From the NCBI GenBank assembly GCA_902798975.1, contig CADBYT010000001.1, positions 62,001-126,000 on the forward strand: 64,000 bases of DNA. The letters run 5' to 3'. The notes below the pieces were generated by a model. That model saw nothing but the letters and a program-made list of their open reading frames with translations, was not told the origin of the DNA and searched no databases. Origin of the DNA: an uncultured Bacteroidia bacterium (GTDB lineage: Bacteria > Bacteroidota > Bacteroidia > Bacteroidales > UBA932). This document shows positions 23,356 to 62,414 of the stretch, in pieces (the first letter of the stretch is position 1; every line of letters starts with the position of its first letter). A program made the translations under genes and the position numbers.

Positions 23356-23489
23356 GCGTGCAGGGCAGACAGTGCCACAAGCAAACCCGTAGCCACCCTC
23401 GGCTTCGTAAGAGGGAGGGGCCCGCGCCGTAAGGCGTGGGAAGGATGAGCGAAGCGAAGGTTTGCTGTGGCAGCTGTCTGCCCACACGC
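23356..23489. repeat. Long hairpin element, copy A
   Basis: Outer arms 23356-23387 and 23459-23489 are complementary over about 31 nt, with small bulges. The interior contains CCCGTAGCCA, then a 24-nt block at 23400-23423 that begins CGGCTTCGTAAG, a short stem-loop (CGCC/GGCG), GGGA, and GCGAAGCGA (23449-23457). All these blocks recur in copy B (33989-34162, reverse orientation), but the outer arms there are unrelated. It fills most of the gap between the ABC-F and CBM9-like genes. Confidence 0.75.
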
Positions 23490-33988: not shown

Positions 33989-34162
33989 CCGGTATACCAA
34001 TCCCTCCGGTTGCCGTCGCTTCGCGACCCCTCCCAACCTGCGGTTGGGCCCCTCCCTCTTACGAAGCCGACTCGAAGAGAAAGTGTCTCCTTTAGGGGAC
34101 CTCAGGGGTTAGGGAACAAGCCAGCTTGCTGGCTACGGGCCCCGGAGGGACAGGTATACCGG
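33989..34162. repeat. Long hairpin element, copy B
   Basis: Terminal arms CCGGTATACC..TCCCTCCGG (33989-34009) and CCGGAGGGA..GGTATACCGG (34142-34162) match at 19 of 21 positions. Read on the minus strand, the interior repeats copy A: CCCGTAGCCA, the 24-nt block (34046-34069), a variable stem-loop (AACC/GGTT) between CCC and GGG, and GCGAAGCGA (34016-34024). It carries about 60 extra nt with its own hairpins, such as AGCCAGC/GCTGGCT. It lies between the dehydrogenase and GH3 genes. Confidence 0.78.
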
Positions 34163-61571: not shown

Positions 61572-62414
61572 TTAGTCCTCCTCCCATTCGTCATACGTGA
61601 GACGTCCGTCGGTGTGATACTCGAACGGCTGCCCGGCAGCCTTCAGGGCGCGGACTTTTTCCATCACGGCGTCGATGACGCGGCAATCCGTCATGATCAG
61701 GTCCTTCGCGTTCTTGCCGACCGTCAGGCCGTCCCCGCCGTCCAGCAGGAAGTCCACCGTGGCCACGCCATAGATCCTGTCAGGATCGAGGGGCTGGCCG
61801 CCCACGAGCAGGGTGTCGATGTGGTGCCGGTGCACGGCCATCTTCACGCCGCCCAGCACGAAAGGCCGGGAAGCGGCGATGGTTTCGAAGACCGCCTGCA
61901 GGTCGGAACCCTTGAGCGCCACGTAGGTCAGGTTGTTCTTGAACGGGAACATCGACACGAAGTCGTCCAGCAGGAGGTCTCCCTGCGGCAGGCTCACGCG
62001 GATGCCGCCGAAATTGAGGATGCCCACGTCCACCTTTTTCCGGGTCAACCGGGCTACGTCTTCCATGGTCAGGTCCACCCACCAGTTGGAGAGCTCGCTC
62101 TCCGGAGCGGAGGCGGCCATCGGGCGGGGGGCATAGCCGACCACTTCCTTGAGGTCCTTCATCTGCGGCTGCACTTCGATCAGGTCGGCGGCCACGCCGT
62201 AGGTGGCGCTCCCCTTCCCGTACTGCGTCCCGTTGGGAGCCGTGTAGACATCACCGGCGATTGTGCCGAGTGCAGTGTCCACGTTGTTCGCCGAAGGCGC
62301 AACGACACCGGTGCGGTGGCCGTCCATGCGGTATTTCTGCCACGAATAGCGATACTCGCAGGAGCATAGTGCAAGGACGGCCGCAGCCAGTACAATTACT
62401 TTTGCTTTAACCAT
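61572..62414 (-). CDS. 5'-nucleotidase C-terminal (substrate-binding) domain lipoprotein
   Basis: 280 aa starting at ATG 62414 with lipobox LCSC (VLAAAVLALCSCEY). It matches the 5_nucleotid_C domain: NWWVDLTMEDVARLTRKKVDVG, LNFGGIRVSLPQG, VSMFPFKNNLTYVALKGSDL and VATVDFLLDGGDGLTVGKN. The catalytic metallophosphatase domain is encoded just downstream as a separate lipoprotein, so both would sit on the same membrane face. The start lies 19 nt inside the permease gene. Confidence 0.88.
   Translation of the reverse strand: MVKAKVIVLAAAVLALCSCEYRYSWQKYRMDGHRTGVVAPSANNVDTALGTIAGDVYTAPNGTQYGKGSATYGVAADLIEVQPQMKDLKEVVGYAPRPMAASAPESELSNWWVDLTMEDVARLTRKKVDVGILNFGGIRVSLPQGDLLLDDFVSMFPFKNNLTYVALKGSDLQAVFETIAASRPFVLGGVKMAVHRHHIDTLLVGGQPLDPDRIYGVATVDFLLDGGDGLTVGKNAKDLIMTDCRVIDAVMEKVRALKAAGQPFEYHTDGRLTYDEWEED

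Follow-up and report, generated by a model that had tools for sequence, protein, structure and literature searches.

A Dispersed Family of Palindromic, Pseudoknotted and Probably Mobile Elements in Bacteroidales Genomes

Introduction

Two hairpin elements in a 64,000-nt stretch of DNA from an uncultured Bacteroidia bacterium of the Bacteroidales (contig CADBYT010000001.1 of assembly GCA_902798975.1, forward-strand positions 62,001 to 126,000; hereafter the window) raise the question of how repeats with a common core can be enclosed by arms that are unlike from copy to copy and nevertheless self-complementary. Copy A and copy B have in common CCCGTAGCCA, the block GGCTTCGTAAGAGGGAGGGGCCC, a CCC-stem-GGG unit and GCGAAGCGA; the stems of this unit differ yet pair (CGCC/GGCG in A vs AACC/GGTT in B), and the outer arms of A are unlike those of B, each set pairing inside its own copy. 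A sequence-only reading had taken them for a structured RNA, or for a non-autonomous element whose ends are rewritten at each site. We propose, with a probability of about 0.6, that they are members of a family of Bacteroidales mobile elements that are palindromic, non-autonomous and tolerated within genes, and that work like the Rickettsia palindromic elements. This proposal explains how arms that are unlike among copies can still pair.

Copy Number and Distribution

Searched genome-wide, the shared core of A and B was found at 15 places in the genome of the window (at most 3 mismatches; the reversed control pattern gave 0), which takes the two hairpins beyond a pair of chance cases. A shorter core pattern matched 35 of 101 genomes, nearly all of the window's genus, and 41 stretches of named public assemblies, whose titles were all Bacteroidales or Bacteroidia and in many cases rumen or omasum. 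A covariance model built from parsed element copies detected three copies in the window, namely A, B and a copy at 2179-2365. At E<=0.01, the model found 25 copies in the window's own genome, 13 in genome G037, 14 in G038 and 12 in G005; at E<=1e-4, it found 559 copies in 50 of the 62 genomes of the genus, many of these assemblies being incomplete. The repeated, non-autonomous nature that had been surmised for the element was thus borne out by the counts in its own genome and genus.

The first listing comprised 79 copies, and a looser parse yielded 85 entries, with one copy (L002) entered twice; of these entries, 82 gave arms and 79 gave cores. Fifty-one cores remained after near-identical and out-of-register ones were dropped, and 48 were aligned (the long-P3 copies L019, L024 and L044 were excluded). 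A further set of 107 copies combined 71 of the 79 core copies with 36 loci from G005, G037 and G038. Among the 82 copies, the alignment score of a copy's own two arms averaged 49.5, compared with 19.4 for 600 arm pairs swapped across copies, and a score of at least 30 was reached by 95% of own pairs and 4% of swapped pairs. Thus, on the core copy number against its control and on own-arm against swapped-arm pairing, we rejected chance or simple duplication; neither a scarcity of other copies nor a failure of their arms to pair was found. The description of a common core within unlike, self-complementary arms is confirmed. The lack of resemblance between the arms of A and B also stands, but arm sequence is not unrelated throughout: a weak consensus is recognisable across the family, and certain copies have arms in common.

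Beyond the genus, the element is rare. An order-wide scan found it in 5 of 247 genomes, these being the window's own and four others, one from another genus of the same family (4 copies) and three from other families (11, 3 and 1 copies). In seven loci from these other-genus genomes, the core agrees and the arms differ from genome to genome. Several elements in a genome of another family of the order (G239, locus L272) lie as close inverted pairs. Two viral-contig scans and a phage collection gave 0 element matches, and a phage origin was rejected on these grounds. The sole similarity in a plasmid search was to a 40-nt block of the core on Azospirillum plasmids (L276-L278, 90-93% identity), where it belongs to a GC-rich (G-rich) hairpin repeat without the element's arms that scores 18-25 bits with the covariance model; kinship or convergence between this repeat and the element is a lead. 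A search of the open-access literature found no earlier account of the family.

A Pseudoknotted Fold with Covarying Stems

The unit is a specific single-strand fold of constant anatomy. It consists of a long outer stem (P1); a short hairpin (P2), the loop of which forms an H-type pseudoknot (PK) with downstream sequence; two further stems (P3 and P4); and conserved unpaired nucleotides. From the 5' end, the P1 arm is followed by CGT, P2 (AGCC, ATGCC, CATGGCC and others), a loop that is usually (A/G)CCCNC, P2' (GGCT, GGCAT, GGCCGTG) and a short joining stretch, usually with TAA or TGA at its end. The loop-pairing block comes next (CCCTC/GAGGG, CCCGC/GCGGG, CCCAC/GTGGG, and CCCCC/GGGGG in the copy at 2179-2365), and the 3' part comprises AGGGG, P3 (CCC-stem-GGG with a very variable interior), AGGG(G/A), P4 and the other P1 arm. 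Many copies have GT(A/G)G at the foot of P2, with the last two bases paired in P2. Arms included, the element measures about 130-190 bp. The features in the window are as follows.

23356-23489, + strand: copy A, whole element
23356-23387, + strand: copy A, 5' arm of P1, pairing with 23459-23489, bulges present
23388-23458, + strand: copy A, conserved core (P2, pseudoknot, P3, P4); covariance-model match 23375-23470, 73.9 bits, E=3e-12
23391-23394/23401-23404, + strand: copy A, P2 (AGCC/GGCT); one pair doubly changed, the rest invariant in A1
23396-23400/23411-23415, + strand: copy A, pseudoknot (CCCTC/GAGGG); one pair doubly changed, the rest invariant in A1
23421-23440, + strand: copy A, P3 hairpin (CCC-stem-GGG); double changes in 5/9 pairs
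23459-23489, + strand: copy A, 3' arm of P1, pairing with the 5' arm
33989-34162, - strand: copy B, whole element; covariance-model match 34149-34002, 59.2 bits, E=2.1e-9
34138 and near 34015, - strand: copy B, end of the 5' arm and start of the 3' arm
34046-34069, - strand: copy B, shared 24-nt block, identical to that of copy A
2179-2365, + strand: third, distant copy with a long P3 insert; covariance-model E=0.005 in the window

The third copy had been suspected at 2191-2320 as a distant member, and it is indeed a real, distant one. Its P2 is GTGTCC/GGACAC, its loop CCCCC lies against GGGGG, and its inner 12-nt arms (2179-2190/2354-2365) form 11 of 12 standard pairs, a figure equalled at 12 of 4000 random places. 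P3 carries about 50 nt or more of extra sequence in this copy, L004 and L075, and the P2 loop carries about 60 extra nt in copy B, L013 and L054.

Across 37 pairs of the 48-copy alignment, 91.8% of cells were standard pairs, compared with 74.7% after shuffling, a control that ignores kinship, and at most 48.7% after sliding by 1-3 columns, a control that retains it. Two-sided changes were observed in 23 of the 37 pairs: 12/12 in the inner part of P1, 1/4 in P2, 1/5 in the pseudoknot, 5/9 in P3 and 4/7 in P4. The conserved core with co-varying stems that the two window copies had suggested is thus a property of the family. At L033, a palindrome of more than 60 bp surrounds the element near a contig end and is probably an assembly artefact.

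Strong covariation and a pseudoknot are also what a structured regulatory RNA of neighbouring genes (terminator, attenuator or riboswitch) would show. Against such a role, the copies are spread among unrelated genes, lie in either orientation and also occur within coding sequence, and the element has no Rfam match: with Rfam 15, no family reached its gathering score in the window, and none was found for the element in five copy-bearing loci at E<=1. A conserved set of downstream genes was not noticed, no systematic test having been made. We consider a regulatory RNA of this kind extremely improbable.

Length and Drift of the Outer Arms

The outer arms were analyzed in most detail in the clade of G005, G037 and G038 (36 copies). 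Own-arm pairing was mostly above 0.8 up to position 26 (minimum 0.69), fell to 0.67 and 0.53 at positions 27 and 28, and was near background from position 29; for swapped arms, the value was about 0.25-0.6 along most of P1. P1 ends at 26-28 bp in 18 of the 36 copies and between 10 and 35 in the others; since half of the copies stop at 26-28 bp, we rejected arms of about 40 bp everywhere. In the remaining 71 copies, bulges lower the ungapped pairing profile at positions 15-18. Of 38 copies in the hairpin-P4 subfamily, 21 have an additional right-arm base following left-arm base 14, and some copies of this subfamily apparently pair further outward through an internal loop.

A weak arm consensus, roughly GCGGAGGGTAT ahead of the inner part, runs across the family. 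The arms of L267 and L272 (both in G239) are nearly identical and their outer flanks are different, and therefore arms can travel with the element; those of L268 and L273 are similar, and several hairpin-P4 copies at different sites also share arms. Comparison of same-site copies in different species gave 63 double Watson-Crick changes, or 16 without four unlike-arm comparisons (possibly separate insertions), which supply 47 of the 63 doubles and 8 of the 24 G-U changes described below; 6 further double changes (L182/L192) arise partly from a one-base shift. In view of the set length, the weak consensus, the shared arms and the joint change of both arms, P1 is most likely intrinsic and drifting, and the arms are probably a part of the element that drifts by compensation after insertion. 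The earlier idea that the ends are rewritten at each site was not sustained, as P1 in the clade of G005, G037 and G038 also has a sharp edge at about 26-28 bp.

Occupied, Empty and Inverted Sites

Copies occur at many unrelated sites, and some sites are without the element in sister species. The copy L167 of G038 is missing at the corresponding G037 site (L237), and the copies L176 and L198 are missing at the G037 site L281, the cleanest empty site. At these two loci, whose relatives are too diverged for a sharp reading, no target duplication longer than 3 nt is readable at L281 and none is clear at L237. At L240 and L280 the element is partly deleted, and at L282 only a palindrome without the core is left. 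By a hand count, copies at 3 of the 12 shared sites carry the core in opposite orientations with respect to the flanks. The arms match at two of these sites (L170 vs L184/L194; L176 vs L198, which also differ in P3 and P4), and one TruB pair (L091 vs L093) likewise has its core flipped.

These sites bear on the possibility that the arms are derived from the target, either as an inverted target duplication made at each insertion or by insertion into the middle of existing palindromes. Such an origin would account for the strong arm differences among sites, for the coreless palindrome at L282 and for the unlike arms of copies at 3 of the 12 shared sites; in addition, GGTTCTGCGGAG (gene strand), the host sequence that borders the L281 site, reappears as a mirror image in the far arm of the copies that occupy the site. 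However, both L281 and L282 can be deletions, and target-derived arms agree poorly with the recurrent bulge position as well as with the family consensus, the set P1 length, the arms shared at different sites and the joint changes after insertion. On the last four points, we rejected this as the main explanation and regard it as unlikely.

Strand-Specific Selection on the Fold

Among the inner 12 P1 pairs of the 107 copies, we counted 1156 Watson-Crick, 46 G-U, 13 A-C and 69 other pairs (G-U vs A-C, p=2e-5), and P3 had 28 G-U vs 4 A-C. When the inner 14 pairs were divided by relation to long open reading frames (ORFs), with approximate labels because GC-rich DNA can give rise to spurious long ORFs, antisense copies had 27 G-U vs 2 A-C, sense copies 11 vs 5 and other copies 14 vs 8. 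One-sided changes at the same sites comprised 24 G-U, 3 A-C and 22 others in overlapping comparisons, and 12 G-U vs 2 A-C (p=0.013) in a de-duplicated hand tally. These results point to selection acting on the element's own folded single strand, either RNA or single-stranded DNA; apparently because this strand is kept, the arms vary among copies yet nearly always match within each. A function in the host mRNA was rejected, since antisense copies are also G-U biased, and on balance the fold seems to be kept on the element's strand, not in the host messenger.

Copying between the arms at the DNA level, by palindrome correction or gene conversion, could maintain pairing without folded-strand selection, and it would fit the double Watson-Crick changes at the same sites (63, or the reduced 16) and the flipped cores at the two matching-arm sites and in the TruB pair. 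It would not produce the excess of G-U over A-C or the covariation that extends to P2, the pseudoknot and P3, and simple palindrome correction would tend to erase the recurrent bulge. We consider this process very unlikely and, because of the G-U excess and the bulge, rejected it in its pure form.

Insertions within Genes

By a stricter test, 68 of the 107 copies lie in long ORFs that are open across the element, 38 antisense and 30 sense; by a loose test, 62 of the 85 parsed entries have an ORF through them. The in-ORF copies occupy all six relative frames, unevenly, and together with the two orientations this speaks against one selected peptide. Typically, 3-4 of the six frames are open through the element, and insertions in protein loops would therefore survive. 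Pfam confirmed as hosts, among others, TruB, the FAD synthetase/riboflavin kinase RibF, DsbD, an RNase R type (RNB) protein, a radical-SAM protein and a Methyltransf_4 protein that carries two insertions; AroB, HemW, TldD and similar names were read from translations without a family search. TruB was found in 59 of the 62 genomes, and the element was recognised by eye in 7 of 50 loci read, in the same linker and always open, three of the seven sharing one insertion. The insert was likewise recognised by eye, and is open, in 7 DsbD loci and 3 glycosyltransferase loci.

A Candidate Helper Enzyme

In the mechanism that we propose, a trans-acting enzyme would recognise the element as a folded single strand, either RNA or DNA displaced from the duplex, and insert new copies, arms included. 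P1 would be required as a long duplex of set length, and for this reason its sequence would drift while its pairing would not. Our best guess at the helper, a weakly supported one, is a Y1/HUH (RAYT-like) transposase. Enzymes of this kind act on strand-specific hairpins, and we favour them because of this property and because the cleanest empty sites are without clear target duplication. Y1_Tnp was detected in 47 of the 62 genomes of the genus and co-occurs with the element: 44 genomes have both, 6 the element alone, 3 Y1 alone and 9 neither (Fisher p=4e-5).

Several points weigh against the proposal. Transposition was not observed directly, and L281 may be a deletion, as uninserted relatives have a longer linker than L281 and L289, with the exception of L292. 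The Y1 correlation ignores kinship and incomplete assemblies; elements are present in 6 of the 15 genomes without a detected Y1 gene, one of them with 14 copies, and the 20 Y1 genes examined, which are part of all Y1 matches, have no element within about 1.5 kb, unlike REP/RAYT pairs. The in-frame loci were ascertained by requiring both halves in one frame (50/50 TruB loci passed), and 2 of 13 DsbD loci and several glycosyltransferase loci were left unparsed. The G-U excess is not significant in the sense and other classes taken alone; it is reversed in P4 (1 G-U vs 7 A-C), whose columns are poorly aligned, and the alignment with this P4 gives 30 G-U vs 17 A-C in P1, while unanchored whole-arm alignments give 150 vs 102. 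Finally, selection on a single strand could serve some RNA function rather than mobility.

A retro-element, whose RNA a trans-acting reverse transcriptase would copy as in a bacterial short interspersed element (SINE), would agree with the RNA-like tolerance of G-U pairs. However, the reverse transcriptase domain PF00078 (RVT_1) shows no association with the element (both 18, element only 32, reverse transcriptase only 3, neither 9; p=0.74), and G005, G037 and G038, which hold 12 copies each at E<=1e-4, gave no PF00078 match in their incomplete assemblies. An RVT_1-dependent retro-element was rejected for this lack of co-occurrence, and the retro-element reading as a whole is very doubtful. 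A broader version, for which we see somewhat better yet still poor odds, is a selfish structured RNA, that is, a pseudoknotted mobile RNA or SINE-like bacterial parasite that leaves translatable insertions and inherits its fold more than its sequence; if this were true, much of the element's length would drift freely.

Relation to Known Palindromic Repeats

Coding palindromes that keep the reading frame have been on record since 2000, with Rickettsia and Wolbachia as the best-known cases, and insertions of repetitive extragenic palindromes (REPs) are described in genes of several other bacteria (excerpts of PMC2229807 and PMC3733652). The Rickettsia and Wolbachia palindromic elements (RPE and WPE) are dispersed palindromes of about 100-150 bp inserted in frame in conserved protein genes (excerpts of PMC2229807 and PMC3767692); R. 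conorii TruB carries RPE-1, and TruB genes of other bacteria also hold palindromic repeats (PMC3733652, in excerpt). The Bacteroidales element is likewise a dispersed palindromic repeat, somewhat longer with its arms, inserted in frame in conserved genes, and the use of TruB as a host in both is a striking parallel. In function, RPE and WPE are its nearest known counterparts. It differs from them in belonging to another phylum, in its pseudoknotted P2/P3/P4 core and conserved unpaired bases, and in a P1 that changes among copies by compensation. As the two were set apart by description and not by sequence, we did not file it as an RPE member.

REPs are 20-40 bp long with a GTAG or CGTC tag outside the pairing, and GTAG REPs often lie near the gene of a REP-associated tyrosine transposase (RAYT) (PMC3733652, in excerpt). 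The strand-specific hairpin, the occasional in-frame insertion, the presence of Y1 in most genomes of the genus and the GT(A/G)G at the foot of P2 recall this system. However, the Bacteroidales unit is longer, its GT(A/G)G is partly paired, and none of the 20 Y1 genes has a copy beside it, so that it departs from REP/RAYT in size, in the unpaired GTAG tag and in adjacency to a RAYT gene. Miniature inverted-repeat transposable elements (MITEs; Correia/NEMIS, ERIC and RUP) are short, non-autonomous, stem-loop forming and genome-wide (PMC2229807, in excerpt). The present element shares these four properties. In MITEs, the members of a family have the same terminal repeats, which are similar to the ends of a transposon, whereas those of the Bacteroidales element vary widely, some copies sharing arms, and a clear target duplication was not seen. 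Nematomorph mitochondria also keep long inverted repeats inside translated genes (PMC6649704), as the Bacteroidales element does; unlike it, these palindromes are, according to the abstract, not a common-core repeat family.

The Bacteroidales family is far from those of Rickettsia and Wolbachia, has hundreds of copies and keeps a readable record of covariation and G-U pairs, which together point to a particular folded strand that is selected independently of the host gene. We know of no account of how Rickettsia palindromic elements move; here, the question of mobility becomes testable as the question of which enzyme binds the folded strand.

Genomic Context and Other Repeats

Copies A and B are apparently intergenic. 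Copy A lies between a CBM9-like gene and an ABC-F-like ATPase gene, and copy B has a GH3 gene on one side and, on the other, a 2-hydroxyacid dehydrogenase gene, the ORF of which, as listed with a TTG start, would overlap copy B by 48 nt.

Element-hosting genes such as TruB also gather other repeats and relics. REP-like repeats of the GTCATTTCGAGCGAAG / GAGAAATCTC or GTCATTCTGAACGAAG type were observed in genes or sites of the element at L116, L188, L243, L283, L284 and L290, and places that hold both look like shared hot spots. Among the hosts at L067, L071 and L080, DsbD has other in-frame repeats (RQAQEP, ARNDYNGARND) and a HemW-like host has a repeated SLxTGxxPPEPPASLRSGGTMQPTA. Another abundant palindrome, AATCCTCGTTC...GAACGAGGATT, was noted in G037 and G038 in the flank of L178, with about 100 partial matches to a flank query.
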